Assembly: GCF_041321155.1 (NCBI RefSeq)
Contig: NZ_JBGGWB010000003.1
Span: 1-64,000 of the forward strand
DNA: 64,000 nucleotides
Origin: Sphingomonas sp. IW22
Lineage (GTDB): Bacteria > Pseudomonadota > Alphaproteobacteria > Sphingomonadales > Sphingomonadaceae
Direction: 5' to 3'
A program made the translations under genes and the position numbers. Numbering within the stretch: position 1 is the first letter of the stretch; every line of letters begins with the position of its first letter. The notes under the pieces were generated by a model, which saw only the letters and a list, made by a program, of their open reading frames with translations, searched no databases and had not been told where the DNA came from. Below are positions 1 through 40,209 of this stretch, one piece after another.

Positions 1-118
1 CATCGAACATCGGCGCTTGCTTCACCGCAAGCTCGCCGCCTAACATCAACCCCCAGACGAGGCCGATCTCTCCGTTCGATCACGCCGCCAAAAGTGCCAA
101 ATCATCTGACGACGGACA
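1..118 (+). mobile_element. Right end of an IS3-family element (copy 1, partial)
   Basis: These bases are the reverse complement of the terminal part of the complete IS3-family element at 21,016-22,539, so the window opens inside a second copy of that element in inverted orientation. The copy ends at 118 with CTGACGACGGACA, the same terminal inverted repeat seen at 21,016. The IS end runs directly into a dehydrogenase gene lacking its 5' part, so an insertion or an adjacent deletion cut that gene. The transposase genes of this copy lie outside the window. Confidence 0.85.
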
Positions 119-119
119 C

Positions 120-2003
120 TCGCCACTCAGCCAGTTGACGCCGGTAAATGTCGGCATGCTCGAGAAAGCATGGACCTTTAGGACCGGCGACCTCACTCCG
201 CCGGGAAAGGTGAATGTTCGCGGGGCGGAGACGACACCGCTGAAAATCGGAGATGGAGTCTATTTATGCTCCGCGCTCAACGACATCATCCGGCTCGATG
301 CACGGACCGGCGCTCAGATATGGCGCCACGAATCCGGTGTCTCCTGGGATAATGTCCGCTTTGCGGCCGTTTGCCGCGGCTTAAGCCATCATGTCTCGAA
401 GAAAATCCCGCAAGGCCAGCCTTGCCATGAGACGATCATCGGCGCGACATCCCGGGACGCCGTCAAGGGCTGGCGCCTGCTGGCCGTTGACATCAACAGC
501 GGCAAATCCTGCGAGAGTTTCGGCACGAATGGCGAAGTCGATCTGTTGCAGGGCATGGGGCGTGCTGTGCCGGGGATGGTTTCGGAGGGCTCGCCACCTG
601 CCGTCGTGGATGGCGTGATCGTCACGAACCAGGAAGTGCTCGACGGGCAGCGGCGCGATGCGCCCTCGGGGGTCGTACGCGGATACGACGCCGATAACGG
701 TGCGTTGTTGTGGGCGTGGGATATCAGGCGGCCCGAGGGCACAGCGCTTCCCCCCAAAGGACCGGATTACAGTCGTGGCACGCCCAATTCATGGGCCGTG
801 CTGACGGGCGATGAGAAGCTTGGGCTGGTCTATGTTCCGACCGGCAATGCGGCGGTCGATTATTATAGTGCGCTGCGTACTCCGCAAGAGAATGCCGTCG
901 CCTCCGCGGTTGTCGCGCTCGATGTGCATACCGGCAAGCAGCGTTGGGTCTTCCAGACCGTCCACAAGGATGTTTGGGACTATGATATGGGGTCGCAGGC
1001 CACACTGTTCGATTTCCCCGGGGGCGACGGACGTGCTGTTCCAGCCCTCATGATCCCGACCAAGCGCGGTCAGACCTTCGTTCTGGACCGGCGTTCGGGC
1101 AAGCCATTGACGAGTGTGAAGGAACTACCGGCCCCGGCCTACAACGAGGTCAAGGATGACCCGCGCGCCGCGACACAGCCCTGGTCTGTTGGAATGCCGC
1201 GGCTGGGTGCAGGCAAGCTCACGGAGGCCGTCATGTGGGGCATGACCCCGCTTGATCAGCTCTATTGTCGCATCAAGTTTCGCAGGGCTCGCTATGATGG
1301 CGAGTTCACCAATCCGACGATCAGCCGGCCCTGGATCGAGTTCCCCGGCAACAACGGCGGAACCGACTGGGGAAGCCTGGCCTACGATCCCCAGTCCGGA
1401 ATCATGGTTGCGAACTGGAACATCGTCGCGATGTACAACCAGTTGGTTCCGCGCAAAAAGGCGGACGCCAACGGCGTGAAGGCCTTCGACGATCCGAACT
1501 GGACCACCGGTCCGTCCGCGGAAGGGCCCGGCGCCCAGGTCGGCGCCCCATATGCGATTTCGGTGGAGACCTTCCAAAACCCGCTGACAGGCGTCCTATG
1601 CAACGAGCCACCCTATGGCATGATCTCCGCCATCAACATGCATACTCGCAAGCTTCTCTGGCAGCGCCCGCTCGGAACAGCACGAGCGAACGGACCCTTC
1701 GGCCTGCATACCGGCCTTCCAATCTCGTTCGGCGTGCCGAGCAACGGTGGGCCGATTATTACCGCGGGTGGACTGGTGTTCATCGCAGCTGCAACGGACA
1801 ATCTGATCCGGGCGATCGACATCAGGACCGGCAAGGTTGTCTGGAGTGATGTCCTGCCGGCGGGCGGCCAGGCAACACCGATGACCTATTCTGTAGACGG
1901 TCGCCAGTATCTGGTGATCATGGCTGGTGGCCATCACTATATGCAGACGCCGGAGGGGGACTATGTCATCGCCTATGCTCTCCCGCAGGAACGGAGGCGC
2001 TGA
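120..2003 (+). pseudogene. gcd: 5'-truncated membrane PQQ glucose-dehydrogenase-like gene
   Basis: The product matches the periplasmic eight-bladed PQQ propeller of membrane-bound glucose/quinate dehydrogenases, which oxidise sugars or polyols and pass electrons to ubiquinone. It opens with AWTFRTGDL and ETTPLKIGD, segments that normally lie about 190 residues into the protein, and closes with the family C-terminus (VIMAGGHHYM, then DYVIAYALP). The N-terminal five-helix membrane domain and the start of the propeller are missing, and the break coincides with the IS3 end at 118. The frame is open from the IS end into the gene, and the first possible start is a TTG at 135, so this is probably a non-functional remnant. 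The match is clear at family level; the substrate cannot be read from the sequence. Confidence 0.8.
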
Positions 2004-9166: not shown

Positions 9167-9540
9167 CGCTAGCCACCCATCCGCCGGCGCAAGAAGAACG
9201 CACCACTGCCTTCTCGCGCAATGCAGGTCGGCACGGAATATATTCAACAGAAGTAATGATGATGGTATGGCGCAGGAGTCGGCAATATGTGGTGCGGCTA
9301 TGCCGCGCATCTCACAGGATGCGGGAGGCTCAAGGCCAACCCCTCCGGCGCGCTTGTGCGGCGCCCCTTTTGTAATTCGTTATCATCCAGACGATCGGTG
9401 GGAGTGTTTCCGATACTGAGGTCACAAATGTGCAATGCGCGGATGCATCGAGAAAGTTTTCGGGAGCAGGCATCGGAAATGCAACCCCCGGTCGTCTTGG
9501 AGTATGATGGCAGACGGGATTAGCGAATGGATCCACTGAT

Positions 9541-10128
9541 GTGACGCGAAACCGGCGCGAGATTGTCGCCTGGGTGGGGAGCCATGTGGTTCCCCACGAG
9601 GCAGATCTGCGCGCCAGGCTCAGGCGAATGGCCGTGCCGGAAGACGAGATCGGGGATATCCTCCAGGACGCCTATGTGAAGATCGCCCGGCTCGACGATG
9701 TCTCGCACATCCGCAGTGGCCGCGCCTATTTCTTCTCGACCGCCAGATCCGTGCTGCTCGATCGCATCCGGCATAACCGCATCGTGCGGATCGACAGCCT
9801 GACCGAAGCGGACACGCTAGCGCTGGCCGACGACGATCCCGGCCCGGAACGCCGGGCCGGTGCACGCCAGGAACTGGAGCGGGTCCGGCGGCTGATCGCG
9901 GAATTGCCCGAGCGGTGCCGGGTGATTTTCGAGATGCGCCGGATCGAAGGTGTGCCGCAGCGTGAGATCGCCGAACGGCTCGGCGTTCCGGAACATACGG
10001 TGGAGGCACAGGCGATACGCGGCCTCAAGCTGATACTGAAAGCAATCGCGGGAGAGAGCGTCGAAGCGATGCCGTCACCGCGAGGGAACAGGAAAGAGAG
10101 TGAACGTGACGAGCAGCGCAATGAATGA
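9541..10128 (+). CDS. ECF sigma factor, FecI type
   Basis: The 195-residue protein has sigma-70 region 2 (DEIGDILQDAYVKIARL, then AYFFSTARSVLLDRIRHNR) and region 4 (ELPERCRVIFEMRRIEGV, then REIAERLGVPEHTVEAQAI). It should direct RNA polymerase to the TonB receptor operon when released by the FecR-like partner encoded next. The start is a GTG at 9541; no strong ribosome site precedes it. Its 3' end overlaps the fecR-like gene. The order sigma, anti-sigma, TonB receptor, isopeptidase matches lasso peptide uptake loci of sphingomonads. Confidence 0.88.
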   Translation: MTRNRREIVAWVGSHVVPHEADLRARLRRMAVPEDEIGDILQDAYVKIARLDDVSHIRSGRAYFFSTARSVLLDRIRHNRIVRIDSLTEADTLALADDDPGPERRAGARQELERVRRLIAELPERCRVIFEMRRIEGVPQREIAERLGVPEHTVEAQAIRGLKLILKAIAGESVEAMPSPRGNRKESERDEQRNE

Positions 10129-11062
10129 TGACGACGCCGCGCGCTGGGCGATCCGGCTCGGCGAAGGAGCGCTGACCTCTGCGGAGGAGCAGGCGCTTGA
10201 CGACTGGCTGCGTGCCGACGAGCGGCGGCAAGGCGCATTGCTGCGCGCCGAGGCAGCGCTTGCCTATCTGGATCGCGGTCGCGCGCTGGCGGAAACGCTT
10301 GTCGAAACATCGAATGACGATGAAGCGCCTAGCTGGGCGCGCCGTCGTTTCCTGATCGGTGGAAGCTCGCTTGCGGGACTGACGGCAGCCGGTGTCGCCG
10401 GATTGGTCCTGACACGGCCCGCGCAGATCGAGATCAGGACGGCATTGGGCGAGATCCGGCGTGTGCCGCTACCGGACGGCTCGGTGGCTTCGGTCAACAC
10501 CGCCAGCGACGTGGCGGTGGTCATGGCGGACAAGCGCCGCGGTGTGCGGTTGAACGACGGCGAAGCCTGGTTTCAGGTCGCGCATGACAAGAGCCGCCCC
10601 TTCGTCGTCGAAGCGGGCAAGGTCCGGGTGCAGGCGGTTGGCACGGCCTTTTCCGTTCGCCGACGTGATGATGGTGCCGACGTGCTTGTCACCGAAGGCG
10701 TGGTTGAAGCCTGGGTGGACGGCCATGAAGACCAACGCACCCGGATCGCCGCCGGGTCGAAAAGCTTCGTGGCCGACGATGCCAAGCCAATCAAGGTCAC
10801 ATCGGCCGGCAATATGATCGACCGGGCCTTATCCTGGCGCACCGGGGAACTGGCGCTCAATGGTGAGAGCCTCGATTATGCCGTTGCCGAACTGAACCGC
10901 TATAACGCACACAAGATCGTGATCGATACGCCGGCCTTGGGCCGAGAGTCGCTGGTCGGCTATTTCCGCGTCGATCAACCGGAGGGGTTCGGTCAAGCCA
11001 TCGAAGCGACGATGGCGGCGAAAATGACGATCGAGGGCGACAGCATTCACCTGTCTCGGTGA
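10100..11062 (+). CDS. FecR-like anti-sigma / signal transducer
   Basis: This 320-residue protein has a cytoplasmic N-terminus (DUF4880-like: DDAARWAIRLGEGALTSAEE, then LDDWL), one membrane helix after a twin-arginine-like RRRFLIGG near residues 85-105, and the periplasmic FecR domain (LPDGSVASVNTAS and VQAVGTAFSVRR). It should sense the substrate-loaded TonB receptor through the receptor's N-terminal domain and control the upstream sigma factor. A GTG at 10,100 and an ATG at 10,121 are both possible starts; both overlap the sigma gene, which suggests coupling. Confidence 0.88.
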   Translation: MNVTSSAMNDDDAARWAIRLGEGALTSAEEQALDDWLRADERRQGALLRAEAALAYLDRGRALAETLVETSNDDEAPSWARRRFLIGGSSLAGLTAAGVAGLVLTRPAQIEIRTALGEIRRVPLPDGSVASVNTASDVAVVMADKRRGVRLNDGEAWFQVAHDKSRPFVVEAGKVRVQAVGTAFSVRRRDDGADVLVTEGVVEAWVDGHEDQRTRIAAGSKSFVADDAKPIKVTSAGNMIDRALSWRTGELALNGESLDYAVAELNRYNAHKIVIDTPALGRESLVGYFRVDQPEGFGQAIEATMAAKMTIEGDSIHLSR

Positions 11063-11157
11063 TTGATGAACTTTTTTTGACTGCCACCATCGGAAAGAAA
11101 TCGCCCGACCGTCTTGTTTTCATCGGCCGCACTCAATGCGGGCGGGGGAGATAACAA

Positions 11158-13761
11158 ATGCGGGGACAATTCGGACTTTCAGTGCAGCAACAGTTGATGG
11201 CGAGCGGCGCAGCGCTCGTGATCATGGTGAGCGCCAGCCCGGCGATGGCGCAAACGCGGACGTTCGATGTACCCGCCCAGCCGGCATTGCGCGGCATTCC
11301 AACATTCGCAAAACAGGCCGGCATTCAGATTGTCGCCAGTGGGAGCGCCGTTCGCGGAAAGCGCACCAATGCGGTTCGTGGTAGCTATTCGGTCGAGGAG
11401 GCACTGCGCCGTCTGCTCGAAGGGACGGGCCTGAAGGCGTCCCCGCTGGGAACGAACGGCATCATCACCATTCAGGGCACTGGCCCGGGGGAAGCGGAGG
11501 ACGGCAGCGCCCCGGCGGGCAACGAGAGCGCTGACATCCTGGTGACCGGAACACGCATTCGCGGTGTCCAATCACCATCTCCGATGGTGGTGACGACGCG
11601 CGAACGCATTCAGGACCAGGGTATCGATGATCTGGGTAGCTTCGCGCGCAACCTAACGCAGAATTATAATGGCGGGCAGAACCCGACAGTCGCCGGTGGC
11701 GGCAACCAGGGGCGCCAGAACAATTTGACCTCATCATCCTCGCTGAATCTGCGTGGCCTCGGAGCGGATGCCACGCTGACCCTCATCAACGGCCATCGCA
11801 CCTCTTATGACGGGATCGGACAGGGCGTAGACATCTCGGCTATTCCCGTCGTGGCCATCGAACGGGTCGAGATCGTCACCGACGGCGCGTCCGCCCTCTA
11901 CGGTTCAGACGCGGTAGCCGGCGTCGCCAACGTCATCCTGCGGCGCGACTTTACTGGCCTTTATACCTCGGCCCGCATCGCCGGCTCGACCGACGGCGGC
12001 AACTTTCAGCAGCAATATGATCTTGTCGGCGGTACGCACTGGGGTTCGGGCGGCTTCATGGGCGTGCTGGATTATTCGGACATCACCGCCATCAACGCGC
12101 GCGACCGCGACTACACGCGCAATCTCGACGACAGCCAAACACTGGTTCCGGCGCGCGAGCAGGTGAGCGTAATCTTGGCGGGCCACCAGCAGTTGAGCAA
12201 TGGTGCTACTCTCGAACTGGATGGCCAATTCGCTGATCGCAGCGCGGAGACGCGCTTCCCGTACACGACGACCAGCAGCGCCTTCACGTTGGGCAACGTG
12301 CCGCACGTCGACACGACGAGCTATACCATCACGCCGACCCTGCGCTTTGCGCTTCCCGGCCGTTGGCAGGCATCGCTGAGCGGCACGCACGGCCGTAGCA
12401 ATGTCGACATCGACACGCGGGCATTCAGTGCCGGCGTGCTGACGACGAGAACCGGTCTCGCCTACGACAACAGCATCGATGCATTGGAAGCGACTGGCGA
12501 AGGTCCGCTGTTTAATCTTCCGGCAAGTGACGTCCGGCTTGCTGTCGGCGGCGGCTACCGTCGCGTTGGTTTGGACGTTTTGATCCAGCAGACCAGCGGC
12601 GGAACAACCACAACAACATCCGACACATCGAATAGCCGGCAAATCTATTTTGGCTATGGGGAGTTGTCGGTCCCGCTCGTCGGACAGGCGAACCGCCTCC
12701 CTCTGGTCGAGAGCCTCGATCTAAGCGGTGCGCTTCGCTACGAAAATTACCGGGGCGTCGGTGACGTTCTGGTTCCGAAGCTGGGCATCGTCTATCGACC
12801 AGTTCGCGATATTACGCTTCGCGGTACGTGGGGTCGGTCGTTCAAGGCGCAGACCCTTTTCCAGGAATTTCAGGCAACCGAGGCGATCTTCGCACCCGGG
12901 TACTATTTTCCGAACTTTCCGGCCGACCAATATGTCCTGCTTCTGTCGGGCGGCAACGCCGGGCTAAGGCCGGAACGCGCAACAAACTGGACCGCATCGA
13001 TCGAAGTGCGACCGGTGAACGGCCTTACCCTGCAGGCGAGCTATTTCAACATCCAGTTCAAGGACCGGGTCGTCACGCCGGCAACCAGTTCGACGAGCGC
13101 TTTTTCAAACCCGGCCAACGCCGACCTGCTGACCTACAATCCCACTCTCGCCCAGATCGCAGCCGCCGTGGCGGCTGCAACCAACGGCGTCACCAACCTG
13201 TCGTCCGTCGCCTATTCACCATCGCTCGTGGCCGCCATCGTAGACAATCGTCTGCGCAACGCGGCGCGGCAGGCCATTCAGGGTGTCGATCTTTCCGCCG
13301 ACTACAGGATGGACATCGGTCCGAGCGAAACACTGCAGCTTATCGCATCGGCAAGCTATCTCGAAAGCGATCAGCAACTGACGCCGCTCAATCCAGTGGT
13401 AGATCTGGCCGGCACGATTTTTAACTCGCCACATTGGCGCGCCCGCGGCGGAGGGATCTACAGGCGCGATAACGTTACCGTCTCAGCGTTTGTGAACCAT
13501 GTCGGTGGTACAAGCGACACGCGCTACACACCCGCCGAGCCGGTGCGCTCATTTACGACGGTCGATCTTGTCGCGCGGCTGCGGTCGACGGAAAGCGCCG
13601 GCCTTGCGCAAGGCATCGAGGCGACAGTGGCTGTCTCGAATCTGTTCAACCAGGCGCCAAGCCCGATCAGGAATAGCAGCCTCATCGATCCGCCCTACGA
13701 TTCGACCAATCAGTCGGCTGCCGGGCGCGTGATCAGCCTCACGATCGCCAAAAAATGGTAA
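11158..13761 (+). CDS. TonB-dependent receptor with N-terminal signalling domain
   Basis: The 867-residue protein has a signal peptide (cleavage likely after SPAMAQ), an STN signalling domain at about residues 35-110, a plug domain (LNLRGLGADATLTLINGHR, then ALYGSDAVAGVANVIL), and a long beta-barrel ending in the aromatic residue of TIAKKW. The STN domain is the part that talks to FecR-type regulators, so this is a transducing outer-membrane importer. Its stop overlaps the start of the next gene by seven bases. By synteny the cargo is probably a lasso peptide or another bulky compact molecule; iron chelates are the alternative. Confidence 0.88.
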   Translation: MRGQFGLSVQQQLMASGAALVIMVSASPAMAQTRTFDVPAQPALRGIPTFAKQAGIQIVASGSAVRGKRTNAVRGSYSVEEALRRLLEGTGLKASPLGTNGIITIQGTGPGEAEDGSAPAGNESADILVTGTRIRGVQSPSPMVVTTRERIQDQGIDDLGSFARNLTQNYNGGQNPTVAGGGNQGRQNNLTSSSSLNLRGLGADATLTLINGHRTSYDGIGQGVDISAIPVVAIERVEIVTDGASALYGSDAVAGVANVILRRDFTGLYTSARIAGSTDGGNFQQQYDLVGGTHWGSGGFMGVLDYSDITAINARDRDYTRNLDDSQTLVPAREQVSVILAGHQQLSNGATLELDGQFADRSAETRFPYTTTSSAFTLGNVPHVDTTSYTITPTLRFALPGRWQASLSGTHGRSNVDIDTRAFSAGVLTTRTGLAYDNSIDALEATGEGPLFNLPASDVRLAVGGGYRRVGLDVLIQQTSGGTTTTTSDTSNSRQIYFGYGELSVPLVGQANRLPLVESLDLSGALRYENYRGVGDVLVPKLGIVYRPVRDITLRGTWGRSFKAQTLFQEFQATEAIFAPGYYFPNFPADQYVLLLSGGNAGLRPERATNWTASIEVRPVNGLTLQASYFNIQFKDRVVTPATSSTSAFSNPANADLLTYNPTLAQIAAAVAAATNGVTNLSSVAYSPSLVAAIVDNRLRNAARQAIQGVDLSADYRMDIGPSETLQLIASASYLESDQQLTPLNPVVDLAGTIFNSPHWRARGGGIYRRDNVTVSAFVNHVGGTSDTRYTPAEPVRSFTTVDLVARLRSTESAGLAQGIEATVAVSNLFNQAPSPIRNSSLIDPPYDSTNQSAAGRVISLTIAKKW

Positions 13762-15899
13762 GGCTCTTGCTGGCGACACTGTGCGTCACGGCGTTTGTGT
13801 ATCCTGCACCAGAAGCGCATGCTCAAACCCAGCCCTTGCCATGCCAGGATATTCTGCCGCGCGCGACGCTCGCTCATCCTTCGGTTCGGCCCGTCGCTCC
13901 TGAGGATCTCGTGCGCCTCCGGGATATCGGCGTGCCGGATATTTACTTTCCCGGATCTGGCGTTGTCGCGCTTTCTCCAGATCGGTCCAAGGCGGCATTC
14001 CAGTTGCGTCAGGCGATTGCGGAAACCAACAATTACTGTCTGGCGATGGTCGTTCTCGATCTTTCCCGTCCGGGTCCACCACGGATCATCGATTCGGGCG
14101 GGGAACTGATCCGCTACAGCTTCGACTTTCGCGGCAAGGCTGCGTTTCCGACGGGCGTGGCCTTGCCGATTGCTCCGCGTTGGTCGCCCGATGGTCGATG
14201 GGTCGCATTCCTGAAGCGCGTCGGCGGACGGACGCAGGTCTGGCGCGCGGATACGTCGGGAGGCGGCAGTGCACCGCTTTCTAGGATCGATACCGATGTG
14301 GAAGATTTCCGGATCACGCCGGGCGGCCATTCGCTGTTGCTCGTGACGCGGCCGGGCCTGCAGGAAGCGCGCGCACGGATCGAGCGGGAAGCACTGTCAG
14401 GTTTCCACTATGATGATCGATATTCACCAATTGCGGGCAACCGGCCTTTCCCGCCGACGCCCGTCAGCCAAGAGTATTTTGTCCAGGATTTGGCAACCGG
14501 CGATCTACGCGAAGCGGGGCCGGCAGAGATCGCGCTCATCAATCCCACACCTTCCGGTGCCCCTTCGGCAACCGCGATGGACCGGTCACCGTCTGGACGA
14601 GCGACCTGGATCGAGCCCGACAAGACGTCGGCATGGACGCTTGGACTAAAGGCCGAGATTGCATCCGGGCAGGTCATTGCGTGTGCTGCGCCGGCGTGTC
14701 GAGGCGAACTCAGCAATCCCTCCTGGTCGCCCAACAGCACCGTCGTTCGCTATTTCCGACGCGAAGGCTGGGGCCGTGGCGGAACGGGTATCTACGAATG
14801 GTCGCCACAAAGTGGTCACGTGCGCCGTCTCTACGAGACCGAAGAGGTTTTGGCCGAGTGCCAGCCGCGCGGCGCAACCTTCCTGTGCCTGCACGAGGCC
14901 GCGGCGCAGCCTCGAAGACTGGTGGACTTCGATCCGAAGGCGCGGACGATACGCGGTGTCTTTGATCCCAATCCGGAATTTAGGATCCTGCAGACGGGCC
15001 GTGTCGAGCGGCTGCGCGTGCGCAACAGCTTCGGCATCGAATCCTATTCCGACCTTGTCCTTCCCATCGGCTATAGGCCGGGTCGGCACTATCCACTTAT
15101 CGTCGTCCAGTATGAAAGCCGTGGCTTCCTGCGTGGAGGAACCGGAGACGAATATCCCGTTCACGCATTTGCAAGCCGCGGTTTTGCCGTCCTGAGCGTG
15201 AATCGGCCGCGATCAGTGGGCAGGCAGAGCGGTGCCACGGATCCGATCGAGCTCGACCGTCTAAACCTAGCGAACGACTTCGCCGATCGACGCAGTGTCC
15301 ACGAGGGCACCATGCTGGCTTTGCAGCAGGTCATCGCTCGCGGCATAGCCGATCCTGCACGCTTGGGGATCACGGGGCTCAGCGATGGCGCATCCAGCCT
15401 CCAATACGCGCTGCTCAACAGCAATGTCTTTGCCGCGGCTGCCAGCGGCAGCGGCAGCTTTGAACCGAACTATAATGGCTTTGTCGGGCCAGCCGCAACT
15501 CGCGAGTTTCGGGCCATGGGTTATCCCGCGATCCTTGACCCGGCACCGGAATTCTGGAGCCGTATCTCCCTGACGCGCGGCGCGCAACGCATGCGAACAC
15601 CCCTGCTATGGCAAGTCGATGACGAATATGTCACGGCAGTGACGCCCTTCACCGCGCTGCGCGAAGCAGGGACGCCGGTCGACCTCTATATTTTTCCGGG
15701 CGAGCACCATATCAAGTGGCAACCGGCACATCGGTTGGCCATTTATCGGCGCAGCATCCAATGGTTCGACTATTGGCTGAACGGGATCGAGCAAAGCGAT
15801 CCCGTCGATCCGGGCCAATATGGAAGATGGCGGGAGATGCACGCTGCCATTGGCTCAAGGCGAGTTGCCGATCCTCATGTAGTGCCAGCAGGGAGATAA
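13755..15899 (+). CDS. Atxe2-type lasso peptide isopeptidase (S9 family)
   Basis: The 714-residue protein has a signal peptide (MVRLLLATLCVTAFVYPAP...), an N-terminal propeller-like half, and a C-terminal alpha/beta-hydrolase half of the prolyl oligopeptidase clan. The nucleophile Ser543 sits in GLSDGA, the acid is Asp622 or Asp623 in WQVDDEYV, and the His is His651 or His652 in GEHHIKW. DLVRLRDIGVPD and NNYCLAMVVLDL near the N-terminus fit the Atxe2 group, which opens the isopeptide ring of lasso peptides in the periplasm. Coupling to a FecIR-controlled TonB receptor supports that role. A generic S9 dipeptidase is the alternative. No lasso precursor or synthetase gene is visible. Confidence 0.78.
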   Translation: MVRLLLATLCVTAFVYPAPEAHAQTQPLPCQDILPRATLAHPSVRPVAPEDLVRLRDIGVPDIYFPGSGVVALSPDRSKAAFQLRQAIAETNNYCLAMVVLDLSRPGPPRIIDSGGELIRYSFDFRGKAAFPTGVALPIAPRWSPDGRWVAFLKRVGGRTQVWRADTSGGGSAPLSRIDTDVEDFRITPGGHSLLLVTRPGLQEARARIEREALSGFHYDDRYSPIAGNRPFPPTPVSQEYFVQDLATGDLREAGPAEIALINPTPSGAPSATAMDRSPSGRATWIEPDKTSAWTLGLKAEIASGQVIACAAPACRGELSNPSWSPNSTVVRYFRREGWGRGGTGIYEWSPQSGHVRRLYETEEVLAECQPRGATFLCLHEAAAQPRRLVDFDPKARTIRGVFDPNPEFRILQTGRVERLRVRNSFGIESYSDLVLPIGYRPGRHYPLIVVQYESRGFLRGGTGDEYPVHAFASRGFAVLSVNRPRSVGRQSGATDPIELDRLNLANDFADRRSVHEGTMLALQQVIARGIADPARLGITGLSDGASSLQYALLNSNVFAAAASGSGSFEPNYNGFVGPAATREFRAMGYPAILDPAPEFWSRISLTRGAQRMRTPLLWQVDDEYVTAVTPFTALREAGTPVDLYIFPGEHHIKWQPAHRLAIYRRSIQWFDYWLNGIEQSDPVDPGQYGRWREMHAAIGSRRVADPHVVPAGR

Positions 15900-16482
15900 A
15901 CATCGCAAAATACTTGCCCAGTTTTTCCGGTCGACAGATCGTGGCAGAATCTCTGCTGAAAGCTCTGATTATCCGGCGAAGGGATGGCAACGACCACCGC
16001 ACCATCGACCCAACGGACCGCGGAAACCGGATCGGCATGAATCGGCTCTGACGTTTCCAACGCGGCCATCGCGTTCGATGACGTACAGTATAGCGATGTG
16101 GTTGCCGGAATAGAAATCCCGTCAGGTCGTAGCGAACACGAACGCCGCAATGCTCTGCTGAGGCCGCACCGTTTCCAAAATTGCCCGCCCTTTTCCAAGT
16201 GATGTGTTGGTGCTATTATTGGTTTTGGTAAATTTCCACTCCTGATTTACGGGGGGGAGGGATGAGCCGCTTGGCTGTCCGATGAGAGTGTTCTTCTGGC
16301 ACCAATACTGGCTCTGGATACGTCCAGCAGCGTCCAGTGAGCGGCTGGTTTCACAGCATTTTTCGACCGAAAATCGCCAGACACCGTCCGGCGACATCCG
16401 GCTAAGAGCACCAGCAGCAGCCACAAAATGCGGCTCTTTTTTGGGGCTCTCGGATCGACCCGGCTTTGCTGGGAAAACGACC
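15900..16482. other. Gap without a convincing gene
   Basis: About 580 bases separate the isopeptidase from the integrase fragment. A 107-codon minus-strand frame (15,875-16,198) overlaps the isopeptidase end and has no recognisable domain. The last 280 bases probably hold the upstream or attachment-side region of the integrase gene. I found no tRNA remnant and no lasso-precursor-like small ORF. Confidence 0.4.
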
Positions 16483-16716
16483 ATGCTGACCTACATCCAG
16501 ATCAATGCCGCCAAGCCGAGAGAGAAGGCCTGGAGCCTTTCCGATTCTCAAGGCCTCTATCTCATCATCCAACCGAGCGGATCGAAGCTCTGGCGCTTCC
16601 GATACCGTTTTCTCGACAGGCAGAAGTCGCTCCACCTCGGCGGCTGGCCGCAGATCAGCCTCGCCGATGCCCGTCTGCGGCGCGACGACGCGAAAAGGCT
16701 AGTTGCCAATGGGATT
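16483..16716 (+). pseudogene. P4-type integrase, N-terminal fragment
   Basis: The reading frame from ATG 16,483 encodes the arm-type DNA-binding domain (DUF4102) of tyrosine integrases: INAAKPREKAWSLSDSQGLY, then LWRFRYRFLDRQKSLHLGG and ISLADARLRRDDAKRLVANG. It then breaks and trbE sequence begins in another frame. The catalytic domain is absent, so it is inactive. It probably marks the end of a former genomic island that recombined with a conjugation locus. Confidence 0.75.
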
Positions 16717-17307
16717 GCGAGAAGAGCGGACCCTGACCGGCCTCGCGCTCTTGCTCCAGTCCAATCCCCTGCGCACCGCGCTCGGTGCCTACACGCTGGA
16801 CGGTCCCTACGGCCGGTTGCTGGACGCCGCCGAACAGCATCTCGCGTTCGCCGACGTGCAATGCTTCGAGACCGAGGCTTTGATGGGCCAGGTCGGGGTG
16901 GTCGCGCCCGTGCTGACCTATCTGTTCCACCGATTGGAGGAGCGGTTCGACGGGCGACCGACCTTGCTGGTGCTCGACGAAGCCTGGATCTTCCTCGATC
17001 ACCCGCTCTTCGCCGCGCGCATCCGCGAATGGCTGAAGGTGCTGCGCAAGAAGAATGTTGCGGTCCTGTTCGCGACGCAAAGCCTTGCCGACATCGCATC
17101 GAGCAGCATCGCTCCAGCTATCATCGAAAGCTGCCCACAGCGCATCTTGCTGCCGAACGACCGTGCGATCGAGCCGCAAAGCCGCGAAGCCTATGTGCGG
17201 TTCGGTCTCAATGATCGCCAGATCGAGCTGGTCAGTCGCGCGACGCCCAAGCGGCAATATTACCTGCAATCCGCGCGCGGCAACCGGCTGTTCGAACTCG
17301 GGCTAGC
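16717..17307 (+). pseudogene. trbE: trbE C-terminal part, first fragment
   Basis: This piece encodes the C-terminal half of the VirB4-type ATPase TrbE of conjugation systems: ERTLTGLALLLQS, the Walker B-like TLLVLDEAWIFLDHP, NVAVLFATQSLADI and RQYYLQSARGNRLFELGL. Its 5' part, including Walker A, is missing at the junction with the integrase fragment. At about 17,307 it is cut by an IS110 element and resumes near 18,485. The frame stays open without frameshifts, so the breaks look recent. Confidence 0.85.
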
Positions 17308-17315
17308 AACTGTGT

Positions 17316-18278
17316 TTAAGTGGCGTGACCTGGCCGCCACGGCGAAGCCGTTTTGAGGACGGCATTGGCGATTGTGACGAGCCTTCGTGCGATTGCGATG
17401 ATGATGAGTTTGTGGGGTTTCCCACGCTCTTTGAGGGGTTTGGCTACCGGTTTCAGCATCTGATTGTGACATGCAGCGGCGAGCGCGGCCTGGAACAGCA
17501 CATGACGCAGCGCTCGCCGTCCTCCAACGATTGTTCTCCTGCCGCGCATTGCCCCACTGTCATGCGGCACCGGAGCAAGGCCGGTCATGGACGCGGCTTC
17601 GCCTGCTGTCATCCTCCCGAGTTCAGGCATTTCAGCGATCAGCATCGCGGCCGAGACGGGCCCGATTCCCGGAATGGAGCGCAGAAGTTGCGCCTTCGTC
17701 GCGAGGCTCTCATCTTGCGCGATAGCGCTTTCGATCCGACGTTCGATCTCGTCGATCTGTTCGTCAAGCATGGCCTTGAGGGCGACGTCCATATCTTCGA
17801 CATCACCCGCCACACCCTGCTTGTTGCGCGCCGAGATATGTGCGGAGAGCCGCTTGCGTATGTCAACGATCTGGGCGCGTCTTGTCGTCAAAGTTCTGAG
17901 AGTGCGAAGATTTTCATTTGGTAATGTTCGTCCCGCGTCTGGCCGGAACAGCATGAACCCGGCGATGAGTTCCGCGTCGATCCGATCTGTCTTCGCACGG
18001 GTACCCCGGGAAAGGGCGAAGGCCTTAATCTGCGCCGGGGGCAGTTGCACAGCTTCGACCCCTGCTGCTGCAAGGGTGATCCAGAGCGCCCATTCCTGAC
18101 CGCCCGTCGCCTCGAACCCAACCTTGACCAGGCCCGGCATCGGCTCGATCAGCTCGCACAGCTGTTTGTGGCCATGTGAGGTGTTCGGCAGGCGGAAACG
18201 CCGTGCCGAAGGATGGCAAAATCCGTCGAGCCAGTCGCGGGATACATCTATACCCACGGCGGTTGTCGCTGCTATCAT
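17316..18278 (-). CDS. IS110-family DEDD transposase
   Basis: This 320-residue protein has the DEDD domain (VGIDVSRDWLDGF, then GFEATGGQEW, then TRAKTDRIDAELIAGFM) and the C-terminal IS110 domain (LRSIPGIGPVSAAMLIAEM and GGRRALRHVLFQAALAA). It looks full length. The element interrupts trbE: gene sequence ends near 17,307 and resumes near 18,485, giving an element of about 1.18 kb. GTGTTT occurs at 17,312 and 18,475, near both edges, and might be the recombined core. Confidence 0.9.
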   Translation of the reverse strand: MIAATTAVGIDVSRDWLDGFCHPSARRFRLPNTSHGHKQLCELIEPMPGLVKVGFEATGGQEWALWITLAAAGVEAVQLPPAQIKAFALSRGTRAKTDRIDAELIAGFMLFRPDAGRTLPNENLRTLRTLTTRRAQIVDIRKRLSAHISARNKQGVAGDVEDMDVALKAMLDEQIDEIERRIESAIAQDESLATKAQLLRSIPGIGPVSAAMLIAEMPELGRMTAGEAASMTGLAPVPHDSGAMRGRRTIVGGRRALRHVLFQAALAAACHNQMLKPVAKPLKERGKPHKLIIIAIARRLVTIANAVLKTASPWRPGHAT

Positions 18279-18484
18279 ATCACACTCTCTTCCTTATGCT
18301 TCGCGGTCCCGCAAACGGGCCGCCGTCAACTGTTCGAGACGGTGAAGAGAGGCGGGATCAGCCTGCTAGCGAACGTGGTCAGGCCACAAGGTGTTTAGCG
18401 CTGTATCCCACCCCGTCACCGATCCCGGCCAGGGTCGGTGACGGGGCATCTATAGCAAAGGCGAGACACATAAGGTGTTTGGTC
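18279..18484 (-). ncRNA. IS110 left-end region with strong hairpin (bridge-RNA candidate)
   Basis: About 200 bases upstream of the IS110 transposase hold no gene but contain a long hairpin at 18,411-18,446. The arm CCCCGTCACCGATC pairs with GGTCGGTGACGGGG around an 8-base loop, with 13 of 14 positions Watson-Crick and one G-T. IS110-group elements encode their guide (bridge) RNA in the left end upstream of the transposase, which is this position. GTGTTT occurs at 18,391 and 18,475. Known: placement of bridge RNAs in the group. Inferred: that this hairpin belongs to one. Confidence 0.45.
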
Positions 18485-18659
18485 CCAGCGTGTGATGGGT
18501 GGTGCCTCCGACCCTGCGACCCAATCCCGCATCGATGCGCTCGTCGCCGAGCACGGCGAGGCCGATTTCGCCGATCGCTTCCTCCGCGATGCCGATCTAG
18601 GCTGGGCCGCAGATATCCTTCCCGATTTTCCCTCCCCCCCAAAGCACAGGAGTAAGTTT
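18485..18659 (+). pseudogene. trbE: trbE C-terminal part, last fragment
   Basis: After the IS110 element the TrbE C-terminus continues with GASDPATQSRIDALVAEHG and ADFADRFLRDADLGWAADIL. The frame then passes through a run of eight C and reads straight into trbJ without a stop. Shifting one base in the C run would give a TAA just before trbJ, so a one-base change may have fused the frames. The ribosome site AGGAG of trbJ is still present. Confidence 0.75.
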
Positions 18660-18887
18660 ATGCGTTCCCACATCCGCAAATATCTGACCGCGAGCGCGCT
18701 CGGCCTTGGTGCCGCCGCCTCGCTCGTCATGGGTGTCGTCACGACGACCACGCCGGCCCACACGCAGCTCCTCGTGTTCGATCCGAGCAATTACAGCCAG
18801 AACCTGCTCACCGCCGCTCGGACGCTGACCCAGATCAACAACCAGATCCAGTCGCTCCAGAATCAGGCGAAGACCCATAGGTCGTGA
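18660..18887 (+). pseudogene. trbJ: trbJ N-terminal fragment
   Basis: ATG at 18,660, preceded by AGGAG, opens a frame with a signal peptide (about residues 1-38) and then LLVFDPSNYSQNLLTAARTL and TQINNQIQSLQNQAK, typical of the periplasmic conjugation protein TrbJ (VirB5-like). Only about 70 residues remain. At about 18,875 the sequence switches to the reverse strand of a traG fragment, so the two genes are joined tail to tail by a rearrangement. Confidence 0.75.
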
Positions 18888-19197
18888 GATTGTTCGATTG
18901 CCGAGCGCGCCACAACGAACCTGCGATCGCAGCACCGCAGCCGATGAACCCGCCCGCAGCGGCGATCGCGCCGGCTTCGTCGAAGATGATCGGCGCATAT
19001 GCGTCGAACGAGAACCACCATGGGAAGATCGACCACGGATGGTATATCGGGTGGCCGAACGCGAAGAACCAAGGTGCGCCTAGTTCGGCCTGGTAGGCGA
19101 GTTCCGCTGCCACCCACTGCGTCGCCGTCCAGATGCTCGCGACGATGATCGCGAGCACCACTATAATTTTTCCGATGAGCAGCTTTGTCGGGGTCAT
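18880..19197 (-). pseudogene. traG: traG (VirD4-type coupling protein) N-terminal fragment
   Basis: The minus strand encodes the membrane N-terminus of a Ti-plasmid-like TraG: TKLLIGKIIVVLAIIVASIW (helix 1), ELGAPWFFAFGHPIYHPW, FSFDAYAPIIFDEAGA and a second helix, then RARQSNNLTTYGS. The cytoplasmic ATPase domain is missing because the sequence breaks into inverted trbJ. ATG at 19,197 (MTPTKLL) is the likely native start. Confidence 0.75.
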
Positions 19198-19400
19198 GCG
19201 GGCCTCCGCCCGCATCGACGAGGGTTCGTCGTCCGGGCTGACCCTAAAGTCTCAAAATGCTATTGTTTGCGTCAGCGCCCCGCTGGTGCCGTCACAGGCA
19301 TTAGAAGGGACATTGAAACTGATTTGTCCCGCAATCCGGTTCAGTTCAAAAATAACGCGTACCCAAGCGTTACGATTAATTACCGGCGGCATCGTAGAGT

Positions 19401-21015
19401 TCAATCTGGTCGTAATCTGCTCGCGCCAACTTGCCCTCCTGGCGCCGCGAGTTTCGCCCATTGCCGGGCTTCGATTTCTCCAGCCGCACCTTGAGGGCGT
19501 TCATCTTTCAACCAAAATGCGAACCAATCCAGATTTCGTCTGTATATTGCTAGCCGATGTGTTGGCTGCCACTTTATGTGCGTCTCGTCAGGATAGATGC
19601 GTAGTTCGATTGGAGCATCAACCTCTCGCAGAGCGGTAAAGGCGGCGAGGGCGGAGCGGTATTCGCTGTCGGCCATTTGAAGCAGGACCGGGAAGCGGAT
19701 CTTGCTGGCATTTTTCACCCAGGAGATGCTCGACCAGAAGCTGTCTGAAGCGCTCGTCAACGCCGGCCAGCCGACATATTCGTATTGTCGTGCGGCAGCC
19801 GGCCCCAGCAAGGCTAGTTGCGTCGGTTCGGCGCAGCAATTGCTCATGGATGCAGCTGCAAACATGGTGCTGTTCACGCCGGCAAACTGAACCGTCGTAG
19901 CGCCATCGCTCAGGCCGGTGATGCCAATTCTTCGGCCGTCGGCCACTCCGCTGTCGATGACCTTCCTCACGCCGACCTCGATTCCGGAAAGAACATTCCG
20001 CTTGTCGATGAAGTCAGTAAGGTCCGCCTTGTCCAGGTCCGCATAGCTCTTCGCACCCGGCGCGACCGCTGGCGATCTGGGGCGCTCGATGCTCAAAACG
20101 GCAAAGCCATCGTTCGCGAAAGCCTGTATCGGATATTCGTCCCCTGTCCCCCCGCGCAGGAACCCGCGGGAGCCATATTGCACGACGATCATCGGATAGC
20201 GTGTCCCGGAACGAAACCCAACCGGAAGGACGAGATCACCGAACATCTCAACGCCGAAGGACGTCGTCCATTGAAGACGTTTGACCTCGCCCTTGGCGAG
20301 GCCGGCGAATTCTGGGTTAGGTTCGAAAACGGCCTGCTGCCTGCCTTTGCTCAAATCGACACGGACAATTCGTCGCGGAACAACGCTTCCCTCGGCCAAG
20401 CATAGCAAATCGTCGCCGATGGGCTTGCAATCGAAGAGGACGTCGGTCGTCTCGTAAAGTTTGCGCGGCTTATCCTTGCCCGGAACCCACTCATAGATGG
20501 CCGTCGTGCCTCGAGCCCAACCTTCTCGCCGGAGGAAACGAACGCGCTGCCCATCCTTCGACCACCATGCGCCCACGGCGATGTCGCTACATGTTTCAGC
20601 CGCGCACGTCAGCTTCCGCTGGTCTAGGCCCTCTACCGCCAGGTGGACGGCATAAGGGATAGGCCCATCGGGATCGATGTAGGTCCACGCACGCCTCCCC
20701 AGTGGGTTGCTGGTTACGGACTGCGTTCCGGCGGGCTCGGCCTCTCCAGAACCTCGGAATGATTGCTCCTCCCCCGGCGTCGCCGGCCGCGACGCCCCTG
20801 TCTGCAAGTCGATGGTTGTGAACGACTTCGGCGCCGGAGCGGGAACGAACGGCGCATTGCTCGCGATCGGAAAATAACGATCGTCGAACAAATATCCCGT
20901 TCGCCCCTCGGTCGCGATCGCCAGATAGGCCTGGTTGAGCGACTGGCGAGAGGAGAGAATAAGCGATTGCCCATCGGCCGAAATGCGAAAGTCGGCAATG
21001 TCGGAAGCGTTATAG
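19401..21015 (-). pseudogene. Second lasso peptide isopeptidase, 5'-truncated by IS3
   Basis: The frame is a paralogue of the isopeptidase at 13,755-15,899. It aligns in order with that protein from its residue 175 or so (DIADFRISADGQSLIL) to the C-terminus, keeping the Ser in GLSDGATT, the Asp in MADSEYRSA and the His in YPDETHIKW. The signal peptide and first propeller blades are gone; the break is exactly at the IS3 end (21,016). The open frame continues into the IS for another 46 codons and has an ATG at 21,155, but a protein starting there would lack an export signal. Confidence 0.75.
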
Positions 21016-21090
21016 TGTCCGTCGTCAGATGATTTGGCACTTTTGGCGGCGTGATCGAACGGAGAGATCGGCCTCGTCTGGGGGTTGATG

Positions 21091-22071
21091 TTAGGCGGCG
21101 AGCTTGCGGTGAAGCAAGCGCCGATGTTCGATGGTCTGCCGTTTGATCCTTTCACGTTGTTTGATGATGGCGCTGGCCCTGCCGAAGTAGGCGTCGGCGG
21201 GGGTCACGTTGTTCAGGCTCTCGTGGTAACGCTGGTGGTTGTAGTGCTCGACAAAGGCCTCGATCTGGGCCTCGAGGTCACCGGGCAGGAAGTAGTTCTC
21301 CAGCAGGATGCGGTTCTTCAGGGTCTGATGCCAGCGCTCGATTTTGCCTTGGGTCTGGGGGTGCATCGGAGCGCCGCGGACATGGCTCATCTTCCGAGCC
21401 TCGATGTATTCCGCCAGTTCGCCAGCGATGTAGCTGGGGCCATTGTCGCTGAGCAGCCGGGGCTTGTGCAGCACCGTCGCGCTGTCGCAGCCTGACGCCT
21501 GCAGGGCCAGGTCCAGCGTATCGGTTACATCCTCGGCCCGCATGTTGGTGCACAGCTTCCAGGCGATGATGTAGCGCGAGAAGTCGTCGAGCACGGTCGA
21601 GAGATACATCCAGCCCCACCCGATGATCTTGAAGTAGGTGAAGTCGGTCTGCCACATCTCGTTCGGACGCGTGGTCTTGGTGTGGAACGCATCGGCGGCC
21701 TTGATGACGACGTAGGCCGGGCTGGTAATCAGGTCGTGGGCCTTGAGCAGGCGGTAAACCGTGGCTTCGGATACAAAGTATTGACGTTCATCGGTAAATC
21801 GTACCGCCAACTCGCGAGGCGATAGCTCGGACTGCTCCAGGGCCAGTTCCACGATTTGGTCCTGCACATCCGGTGCGATGCGATTCCACACCCGGCTCGG
21901 TGCCGATGGCCGATCTTCCAGCGCCTCCGGGCCGCCCTCGAGGAAGCGATCATACCAGCGGTAGAACGTCCGCCGGGCAATGCCGAGCTGGTCCAGCGTC
22001 CGCTTGGCAGGCAAGTGCGACTGCTCGACGATCCTGATGATCTCGAGCTTTTCGGATGCCGGATACCTCAT
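21091..22071 (-). CDS. IS3-family transposase OrfB
   Basis: This 326-residue protein has an N-terminal helix-turn-helix (KRTLDQLGIARRTFYRWYDR) and an rve integrase core with the DDE residues in MWQTDFTYF, LLSDNGPSYI and QGKIERWHQTLK. ATG at 22,071 overlaps the orfA stop (ATGA), so OrfB may be made by coupled initiation. The long frame starting at 22,296 is antisense-like extension and not needed. Confidence 0.9.
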   Translation of the reverse strand: MRYPASEKLEIIRIVEQSHLPAKRTLDQLGIARRTFYRWYDRFLEGGPEALEDRPSAPSRVWNRIAPDVQDQIVELALEQSELSPRELAVRFTDERQYFVSEATVYRLLKAHDLITSPAYVVIKAADAFHTKTTRPNEMWQTDFTYFKIIGWGWMYLSTVLDDFSRYIIAWKLCTNMRAEDVTDTLDLALQASGCDSATVLHKPRLLSDNGPSYIAGELAEYIEARKMSHVRGAPMHPQTQGKIERWHQTLKNRILLENYFLPGDLEAQIEAFVEHYNHQRYHESLNNVTPADAYFGRASAIIKQRERIKRQTIEHRRLLHRKLAA

Positions 22072-22454
22072 TCGTCGTCGCCCCCATCCGCGATCATGCT
22101 TTTTTTCAGCAGACGGTTTTCGAGCGTCAGGTCGGCAACGCATTCCTTCAGGGCGCGGGCTTCGCGCCGCAAGTCCTGCACTTCGCCCGTGGTCGCGGCA
22201 CGGGCAGTGTCGCCGGCCAGGCGGCGCTTGCCCGCCTCCATAAACTCCTTGGACCAAGTGTAATACAGACTCTGGGCAATGCCTTCCTTGCGGCACAGCT
22301 CGGCAATGCTGTCCTCGCCGCGCAGACCGTCGAGCACGATGCGGATCTTGTCCTCGGCCGAGAAATGCCGACGGGTCTGCCGCCGGATGTCCTTCACCAC
22401 CCGCTCAGCGGGGGCCTTGACCGGCGATTTTTTCAAGGAGGGTTGGGTCTTCAT
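22068..22454 (-). CDS. IS3-family OrfA
   Basis: The 128-residue product has a Tnp_8-type helix-turn-helix (RRHFSAEDKIRIVLDGLRG, then SIAELCRKEGIAQSLYYTW) and a C-terminal leucine-zipper-like helix (LRREARALKECVADLTLENR). It should bind the IS ends and pair with OrfB. ATG at 22,454 follows GGAACGAAG; the frame is open up to 22,487. Confidence 0.88.
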   Translation of the reverse strand: MKTQPSLKKSPVKAPAERVVKDIRRQTRRHFSAEDKIRIVLDGLRGEDSIAELCRKEGIAQSLYYTWSKEFMEAGKRRLAGDTARAATTGEVQDLRREARALKECVADLTLENRLLKKSMIADGGDDE

Positions 22455-22616
22455 CTTCGTTCCTTCGTCACTACGACGAAGCCCCAACCCTCCTTAAATC
22501 ACAACCTCAAATCTGTGCCATGGGCGCTGACGGCGGACAGACTTCACCGTCAGCCAAACCCGCTAACAATATATCGCCTTGGGATGGCCTGGGAGCGAGT
22601 CATAGGAGGATTGTCC

Positions 22617-27819: not shown

Positions 27820-28218
27820 ATGGACTTCAGTACAGCGCAGTCCCTGGTCGCCGTCGCCAAGAGCGAGGCGGACAAGACGGGAGTCTCAGTTTCCATCGCG
27901 GTACTCGATGCAGCCGCCCATCTCCTCGCTTTCGCCCGCTCGGAAGCCGCCGCTCTCGGAACGATCGACGTCAGCCAGAGGAAGGCACGTACCGCCGCGC
28001 TCTTCCAGACTGACAGCAGCGAGCTCGGCGCCGGTGTCGGTCCCGGCGGACCCGCCTATACATTTGAGAACACCAATGGTGGTCTGATCGTCTTTGGCGG
28101 CGGTGTCGTACTTCGCAACAAGGATGGGGCCTTTATCGGTGCGATCGGCATCGCAGGAGCAACCATCGAGCAGGATGAGGCGATCGCCAAGGCGGCTGCC
28201 TCGTCCATCCTGGCCTGA
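27820..28218 (+). CDS. GlcG/HbpS-family protein (DUF336)
   Basis: This 132-residue protein fits the GlcG/HbpS fold: DFSTAQSLVAVAKSEADKTG, SIAVLDAAAHLLAFARSEAA, SQRKARTAALFQTDSSELG and a C-terminal GAIGIAGATIEQDEAIAKA. Members occur beside glycolate, diol and B12-dependent enzymes and in heme-sensing systems; their molecular role is unsettled. GAAGGAAG lies upstream of ATG 27,820. It is 10 bases from the next MFS gene, so they probably form one operon. Confidence 0.8.
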   Translation: MDFSTAQSLVAVAKSEADKTGVSVSIAVLDAAAHLLAFARSEAAALGTIDVSQRKARTAALFQTDSSELGAGVGPGGPAYTFENTNGGLIVFGGGVVLRNKDGAFIGAIGIAGATIEQDEAIAKAAASSILA

Positions 28219-28228
28219 CGGGGGCGAT

Positions 28229-29401: not shown

Positions 29402-29557
29402 TCCGGGCGTACCGAACAGCACAGCCCCGATGCGGTCGCTCGAGATCCGGGATGCACTTGTACGGCGCCTTCGAATTCATCTGCGACCGGCGCGCGCAAA
29501 TGATGCTCGGCGAGCGCAAGCGCCGCTGGGCAACACGATAGTCGAAAGCCTGTTCCG

Positions 29558-39909: not shown

Positions 39910-40209
39910 TTGTCCAAGGTCAATTTCCGTCTTGAACGAGCGTTGCATGTCGCGTTAGTTCGACGTGCGCGTGGCGCCAATCTCTCGCTATCCGCCTTCA
40001 TCCGCCAGGTGCTCGAGCAGGCGGTGGATGAGCGCAAACGCTACGTCTTCTCCTCGCAAGACGAAATCCTCGCCACCACCATCCAGATCCTCTCGATCCT
40101 GGCGACTTCCGTGGGCCAGCAATCGCCAAAGACCCTTGAACAAGGCATGGCCCAGGCGCGGTCCATACTCCTGGAGCGCGGCCTCCTCGGGGAGGCGGAT
40201 CGCTCATGA
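39910..40209 (+). CDS. Small putative relaxosome DNA-binding protein
   Basis: The 99-residue protein starts at TTG 39,910 (LSKVNFRLERALHVALVRRA) and looks like a ribbon-helix-helix protein: a short strand, then RARGANLSLSAFIRQVLEQA, a typical second half of that fold. It overlaps traD by ATGA and therefore probably belongs to the relaxosome, binding oriT like TraY or TrwA. This is inferred from position and fold pattern, not a named family match. Confidence 0.55.
   Translation: MSKVNFRLERALHVALVRRARGANLSLSAFIRQVLEQAVDERKRYVFSSQDEILATTIQILSILATSVGQQSPKTLEQGMAQARSILLERGLLGEADRS

Follow-up and report, generated by a model that had tools for sequence, protein, structure and literature searches.

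We analyzed a stretch of 64,000 nucleotides from Sphingomonas sp. IW22, here called the window, which corresponds to positions 1-64000 of contig C3 in a genome of 4.0 Mb and 43 contigs. The window was found to contain a module of four genes, all open, encoding an extracytoplasmic function (ECF) sigma factor of the FecI type, a FecR-type anti-sigma regulator, an STN-type TonB-dependent receptor and an Atxe2-family lasso peptide isopeptidase, denoted isopeptidase 1 (Table 1). Contig C3 starts 9.5 kb left of the module. The sigma and fecR genes overlap by 29 bp and the receptor and isopeptidase 1 genes by 7 bp, but fecR and the receptor gene are separated by 95 bp that hold a promoter-like site. 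The four genes are therefore present as a preliminary description of this DNA had listed them, and its phrase "one overlapping operon" holds only roughly. With an STN domain on the receptor, a FecR regulator and an ECF sigma factor all in one locus, the signaling part is of the FecI-FecR-FecA type.

Isopeptidase 1 matched the NCBIfam model NF033523 (Atxe2) over the whole profile (positions 1-638 of 638) with 757.4 bits against a cut-off of 400. Its best PDB match was AtxE2 (5txc, 1.1e-130, query residues 40-698). A generic DPP4 or acylpeptide hydrolase was rejected, the best non-Atxe2 NCBIfam score being 53 bits against a cut-off of 900 bits, and the Atxe2 assignment proposed earlier for the protein at 13,755 was thus confirmed. 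In the alignment of the Atxe2 family, the serine of the catalytic triad was found in all 153 ungapped rows, Asp or Glu in 149 of 152 and His in 152 of 152. Both isopeptidases of the window (the second is described below) keep S, D and H at these columns. A signal sequence of the Sec type was judged by eye to be present in isopeptidase 1.

No lasso precursor (A), B or C gene was found beside the module, in agreement with the preliminary description. Searches with the B and C proteins of the strain's own lasso cluster (tblastn, E 1e-4) gave no match in the window or in C3:64001-84000, B and C profiles gave none among the open reading frames (ORFs) of the window, and a full-sensitivity scan of four gaps for B or C relics returned nothing better than E 0.5. 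At their thresholds, own-genome searches placed neither lasso B nor lasso C on contig C3. Pattern scans for a precursor gene yielded one loose 'core' match in the window (24117, minus strand) and one in locus L011 (18088, plus strand), both of them without leader or tail motif.

The genome does contain lasso synthesis genes elsewhere. A single PF13471 (lasso B) match was found, on contig C8, together with a C-type lasso synthetase. These belong to a complete cluster (locus L010, C8:18000-37900, positions 9416-18509 therein) with precursor, B and C genes and a convergent set of isopeptidase, receptor, FecR and sigma genes of its own. The predicted core of the C8 peptide is GNSSVDIDQAGKRLQSGLSDD, for which an alignment of 12 precursors suggests a Gly1-Asp8 ring, and the precursor profile found no other precursor in the genome. 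Three proteins of the genome exceed the NF033523 cut-off, two in the window and one on C8. Isopeptidase 1 and the C8 isopeptidase are only 36-37% identical and fall in separate clades. A strain without lasso genes was therefore ruled out: the expectation that synthesis genes would be missing was borne out next to the module and not for the genome as a whole.

We then surveyed how often such isopeptidases stand apart from synthesis genes. Among 151 genomes of the same genus, isopeptidases at E <= 1e-100 were found in 46 genomes, at 65 places. PF13471 lay within 6 kb in 57 of these places, always on the opposite strand. The remaining eight comprised the window's own two and six whose DNA was examined for synthetase C, which was present in L020, L021 and L023 (about 10 kb off in L023) and absent in L022, L024 and L025. 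Genomes G002, G033 and G057, cluster-less by B distance, were ruled out as such since C was present. A sample of 397 genomes of the family gave isopeptidases in 62 genomes, at 79 places, of which six repeated the genus sample and the other 73 were fetched. A further 16 named loci brought the set to 152, the window counted once, and each was taken with flanks of about 9 kb as far as its contig reached. Among the same-genus genomes, G138 and G125 have loci whose isopeptidase, over the last 300 residues compared, is identical to that of the named loci of S. glacialis E6.1 and Sphingomonas sp. R-74633, respectively, which identifies the genus as that of Sphingomonas. Synthetase C was present in 143 loci and absent in nine. 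Five of the nine, all from sphingomonads, are intact modules with open genes (the window, L022, L024, L112 and L134). Three are broken: the isopeptidases of L025 and L140 match only profile positions 1-545 and 3-412, respectively, and L108 has a split receptor. The ninth, L041, lies on a distant Marinicaulis contig. In a class-wide sample, 2 of 385 genomes contained an isopeptidase, one of them being this genome. Plasmid records with a relative numbered 20, and B and C were present in all eight that were opened (six by annotation, two by profile).

In locus L108, the receptor plug and the isopeptidase are nearly identical to those of the full cluster L030/L149, yet the receptor is split and C is missing from the surroundings, with PF13471 matched on that contig at a distance of about 24 kb. 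L108 reads as a recent rearrangement.

The intact modules without synthesis genes were found to carry a different regulator. We compared the best sigma factor of each locus with those of the window and of C8. Among the 143 C-bearing loci, 135 had a C8-like sigma factor, one (L039, Asticcacaulis) a window-like one, and in seven none was found; among the nine C-less loci, the five intact sphingomonad modules had a window-like and the other four a C8-like sigma factor. After removal of seven duplicates, the C-bearing counts became 128, one and seven, and the C-less counts stayed at five and four. Window-like sigma factors thus occur in 5 of 9 C-less versus 1 of 129 C-bearing loci with a sigma factor (Fisher p = 2.4e-5 with the window excluded, the related loci not being independent). 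In trees built on part of the loci, the sigma factors of the window and L112 grouped together (support 99), as did those of L022, L024 and L134 (99). The FecR tree gave the same two groups (100 and 99). In the receptor tree, L022, L024 and L134 again clustered (95), and the window and L112 were placed in different lasso clades. The five stand-alone isopeptidases were spread among C-bearing lineages. A single descent of all five was rejected (p of the approximately unbiased test, p-AU, 3e-105), and topology tests also rejected each of the two isopeptidase groupings, window with L112 and L022 with L024 and L134. Forcing the window sigma factor to the clusters next to its isopeptidase was rejected as well (p-AU 3.4e-6).

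Relatives of the window sigma factor at E <= 1e-15 were found in 101 of the 397 family genomes. The nearest, 69% and 70% identical, are located in G139, on a contig other than that of its isopeptidase, and in G399, 67 kb from an isopeptidase. As sigma factors of such identity stand at other TonB systems, we dropped the idea of a sigma factor peculiar to lasso modules and assigned that of the window to a general lineage. Besides the window's own, the 24 best sigma-relative loci (L193-L216, of which L203 is the L112 locus) all match sigma, FecR and receptor, the receptor gene of L214 being oriented the opposite way. Two loci were read further, and in both the genes for sigma, FecR and receptor are followed by a peptidase gene, of type M16 in L217 and of type S9 in L218. 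In L195, L196 and L197, a match of about 29% to isopeptidase 1 over 298 residues was observed just upstream of the general sigma gene, which is perhaps another S9 peptidase.

Judged by its sequence identities, the window receptor is a chimera, with an STN domain of the general FecIR type and a plug and barrel of the lasso-cluster type. Over residues 1-138, identity to the receptors of L217 and L218 is 55-56%, and that to lasso receptors at most 42%. Residues 141-330 are 60-67% identical to the eight best lasso receptors, compared with 36-39% to L218 and L217; the incomplete L220 receptor could be compared over 93 residues and gave 45%. For residues 331-867, the values are 42-46% (lasso) versus 22-28% (general). 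A trimmed STN segment reached 62% with general receptors and 43% with the best lasso receptor, and the plug 67% with lasso versus 36% with general receptors. The L112 receptor has the same pattern (STN 49 general versus 38 lasso; plug 76 lasso versus 38 general). As a control, the C-bearing receptors were compared in the same way: the STN part was closer to the general type in 1 of 134 (the two-piece receptor of L124) and the plug in 0 of 134. Such an exchange of STN domains suggests a natural route by which a receptor could be attached to a new sigma pathway.

A promoter-like motif, CGGAAA-N13-YGTCTW, was first spotted by eye before the sigma and receptor genes. It occurs twice in the window, a number reached in 0 of 100 shuffles, although the motif itself was drawn from the window and L112 sites. 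Independent support comes from L193, which matches at both positions, and from L194, which matches at the receptor position, with the last two motif bases left out; the relaxed motif match in L198 falls inside its sigma gene. Five matches were found genome-wide, and the other three lie within long open frames and were set aside as chance. The same scan gave no match on C8, where the strain's own lasso cluster is located. Of 192 loci, only the window copies, L112 (both positions) and those with the three other genomic matches contain the motif. The other subgroup has a different sequence, RTTAC-N17-TTGTCT, once in L022, twice in L024 and once in L134, and also in the C-bearing L162.

The window has a second isopeptidase, isopeptidase 2, which lacks the first ~128 profile positions. 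Its N-terminus was replaced by an insertion sequence (IS), which truncated this protein and not isopeptidase 1. The IS end at 21133-21014 recurs exactly at window positions 1-120, where the contig begins, so that the contig break lies at a repeated IS. Isopeptidase 2 is followed by a traG fragment, the same gene order as in L022 (genome G043), where about 280 bp separate the stand-alone module from traG and trbE lies further on, both of them full length. Isopeptidase 2 thus probably closed off a stand-alone module that was carried by a conjugative element. In L024, an integrase of the Arm-DNA-bind_3 type is located about 1.7 kb from the isopeptidase. Conjugation genes were found beside lasso clusters as well: traG in 7 of 143 C-bearing loci (L061, L066, L068, L069, L093, L107 and L118) versus 3 of 9 C-less loci, and trbE in 11 of 143 versus 2 of 9. 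In sphingomonads, lasso clusters seem to be carried often by conjugative elements. Further along the window (40206-45250), the contig has another set of conjugation genes, comprising a TraD-like coupling protein of the F type and a relaxase resembling MobF/TraI, and two neighboring MFS transporters (28094-30742) are nearest to the Cmx/CmrA efflux model, below its cut-off.

Table 1 Features of the stand-alone module and its surroundings in the window.
Feature	Position	Strand	Basis or remark
Promoter-like site CGGAAA-N13-CGTCTT, upstream of sigma gene	9474..9498	+	Motif match; also before sigma in L112 and L193
FecI-type ECF sigma factor, general (non-lasso-cluster) lineage	9541..10128	+	sigma70-ECF, 85 bits
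FecR-type anti-sigma regulator	10100..11062	+	PF04773; GTG start as called, ATG at 10121 possible too
Promoter-like site CGGAAA-N13-CGTCTT, fecR-receptor gap	11091..11115	+	Motif match; same position in L112, L193 and L194
STN-type TonB-dependent receptor, chimeric	11158..13761	+	Pfam STN 56-99, plug 138-256, barrel 358-829
Putative crossover at ILVTGTRIRG stretch	11530..11577	+	Codons about 125-140; sliding identity, change at residues about 121-140
Isopeptidase 1, Atxe2 family, full length	13755..15899	+	NF033523, PDB match, triad
N-terminal tyrosine integrase fragment (Arm-DNA-bind_3)	16483..16712 (ends approximate)	+	About 580 bp from isopeptidase 1
Conjugal transfer ATPase TrbE fragment	16790..17314	+	Library scan
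Transposase-like ORF inserted in trb remnants, presumably IS110 type	17316..18278	-	ORF list
End of trbE and start of trbJ	18492..18887	+	Library scan
IncP-type TraG N-terminal fragment	18868..19221	-	About 180 bp downstream of isopeptidase 2
Isopeptidase 2, truncated	19401..21014 (within ORF 19401-21155)	-	NF033523, 618 bits, profile 129-638; ends at IS boundary
IS with IS481/IS3-like transposase, truncating isopeptidase 2	21014..22500 (far end approximate)	-	Family scan, repeat comparison

Taking together the gene content, the intact triad, the mosaic ancestry, the paired promoter-like sites and the lack of detected synthesis genes beside the module, all read from DNA and protein sequence, we infer its ligand, induction, import, cleavage and benefit. 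The best-supported reading, which we consider reasonably probable, is that the module stands alone, induces itself, and serves to sense, import and linearize lasso peptides of other strains. The idea that neighbors' lasso peptides are imported and cut, already raised in the preliminary description, is kept at this strength, given the Atxe2 match and the failure to find A, B or C genes beside the module. A benenodin-type lasso peptide, with a Gly1-Asp8 ring and a C-terminal GL[S/T]DD, would bind the plug and barrel of the receptor, whose STN domain would relay the signal via FecR to the sigma factor. The sigma factor would then transcribe from the CGGAAA-N13-YGTCTW sites before sigma-fecR and receptor-isopeptidase, and not the strain's own lasso genes. 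The receptor would take in the peptide and the periplasmic isopeptidase would open its ring, which could yield a linear peptide as food, set free a bound cargo, or do away with a signal or toxin. The module would have originated by recombination, with sigma, FecR and STN derived from a sphingomonad FecIR-TonB-peptidase system and the plug, barrel and isopeptidase from a lasso-cluster lineage.

Candidate ligands can be named from the ten C-bearing loci nearest to isopeptidase 1 (L026, L034, L046, L049, L050, L056, L060, L065, L144 and L145, with L060 and L065 the same). All ten have a candidate precursor in which the junction reads TKG, and the C-terminal end is GL[S/T]DD in nine and DLSDD in L056. 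Predicted cores from the sister clade are GSTIGFADVETGLQPKVGLTDD (Sphingomonas sp. QA11) and GVTPGIADLEFGQQLPMGLSDD (S. glacialis). The C8 core ends in GLSDD, like most precursors nearest to the window's receptor and isopeptidase, and sphingocin is described as carrying this C-terminal tail too (PMC11006600). Since the tail is common to the C8 and sister-clade peptides, self and foreign are not told apart by it.

Several findings weigh against a module devoted to foreign peptides. The window starts at an IS at a contig end of a 43-contig assembly, so sequence may be missing. Lasso B genes are found elsewhere in this strain and in 3 of the 4 other genomes with intact stand-alone modules, which makes a self-made substrate possible, and the L022 isopeptidase is 66% identical to one from a lasso cluster of its own genome. 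L039 combines a window-like sigma factor with synthesis genes, and four C-less loci have C8-like sigma factors, though three of these are broken and L041 was assigned by one bit. The union of the sigma factors of the five intact modules was supported by only 59 in one tree, and an earlier tree flagged that the long branches of the window and L039 meet. The STN domains of L022, L024 and L134 are slightly nearer to lasso than to general receptors, leaving only two modules in which the chimera is shown, and the general STN comparison set was selected by kinship to the window's sigma factor. A mobile setting was discarded as a mark of stand-alone modules, as C-bearing lasso loci adjoin conjugation genes too.

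The module could instead be a second uptake or recycling unit that acts in trans on the strain's own C8 lasso peptide, or on a broader family including it. This fits the C8 precursor, which is intact, has a GLSDD end and was the sole genomic hit of the precursor profile, and the kinship of the L022 isopeptidase to that of its own-genome cluster. We nevertheless regard it as unlikely: the C8 cluster possesses its own sigma factor, FecR, receptor and isopeptidase, the last distant from isopeptidase 1 and in another clade, and lasso isopeptidases are reported to cleave their cognate lasso peptides only (PMC9266682). Genome G139, which has an intact stand-alone module, gave no PF13471 match, which is no proof since this profile misses some B genes (in L020, C is present and B unmatched).

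A slightly less likely reading is that import and linearization serve as detoxification, so that the module would confer immunity to hostile lasso peptides instead of scavenging them. The anatomy would be the same, and exposure is plausible, since lasso clusters are found on plasmids and next to conjugation genes. Peptides of the isopeptidase type are, however, described as without antimicrobial activity, astexin-1 excepted (PMC9266682), and a cell that actively drew a toxin in through TonB would be defending itself in an odd way.

Least probable of these three, by a narrow margin, is a lasso-cluster remnant that lost its A, B and C half and is drifting toward decay. The region is crowded with IS and broken conjugation genes, and broken C-less loci with lasso-type sigma factors do exist (L025, L108 and L140). 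Against this, all four genes are open, the triad and the paired promoter-like sites are kept, no B or C relic was detected in the scanned gaps, sigma, FecR and STN do not descend from a lasso cluster, and placing the window sigma factor with the clusters of its isopeptidase was rejected. Loss of the biosynthesis half to IS activity, the other origin offered in the preliminary description, is unlikely for the intact module because no IS was seen between isopeptidase 1 and the usual place of C, the gap scan returned no B or C relic, and simple loss does not explain a sigma factor, FecR and STN from a non-lasso-cluster lineage.

If the reading of a module that takes up other strains' lasso peptides is true, a sensor, importer and ring-opener kept apart from synthesis, under a rewired regulator, imply that these peptides may well be worth taking. 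More broadly, and only tentatively, sphingomonads may harbor a class of dedicated lasso-piracy modules, put together repeatedly, or a single time and then reshuffled, in which a lasso barrel and isopeptidase were placed on a general peptide-scavenging signaling half, partly on conjugative elements, with the peptides acting as siderophore-like shared goods. The biological role of isopeptidase-type lasso peptides is called enigmatic, and siderophore-like ideas have been raised (PMC9266682). Disruption of a lasso B gene by a Tn5 insertion is reported to end phenanthrene use in a Sphingomonas (PMC11006600). As the module reading predicts concrete ligands, the siderophore-like idea becomes directly testable. 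Searches of the open-licence literature of PubMed Central, which leaves most subscription papers outside, turned up no isopeptidase-receptor module reported to lack synthesis genes.

The FecI-FecR-FecA systems and xenosiderophore receptors combine an STN receptor, an anti-sigma regulator and an ECF sigma factor and can take up goods made by others. The module resembles them in this, but its ligand would be a lasso peptide, and a dedicated ligand-opening enzyme stands in the operon. Closest in regulation are the sphingomonad FecIR-TonB-peptidase modules with M16 (L217) or S9 (L218) peptidases, whose sigma factors are 71-72%, FecR proteins 59-61% and receptor N-termini 55-56% identical to those of the window and which have the same promoter-like motif. 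Their receptor barrels, in contrast, are only 22-28% identical, and their peptidases lie outside the NF033523 places at E <= 1e-100. Isopeptidase 1 itself is like AtxE2 (PDB 5txc/5txe) in its near full-length match and Ser-Asp-His triad, but is located outside any biosynthetic cluster, and its role in cleaving lasso peptides is a predicted one. Known isopeptidase-type lasso clusters have a near-constant layout (PMC9266682). With such clusters (astexin, benenodin, sphingonodin and sphingopyxin), the module shares a sigma factor, FecR, STN receptor and Atxe2-family isopeptidase, and its receptor plug and barrel and its isopeptidase descend from that lineage. It differs from them in that no precursor, B or C was found with it and in that its sigma factor, FecR and STN domain come from another lineage.

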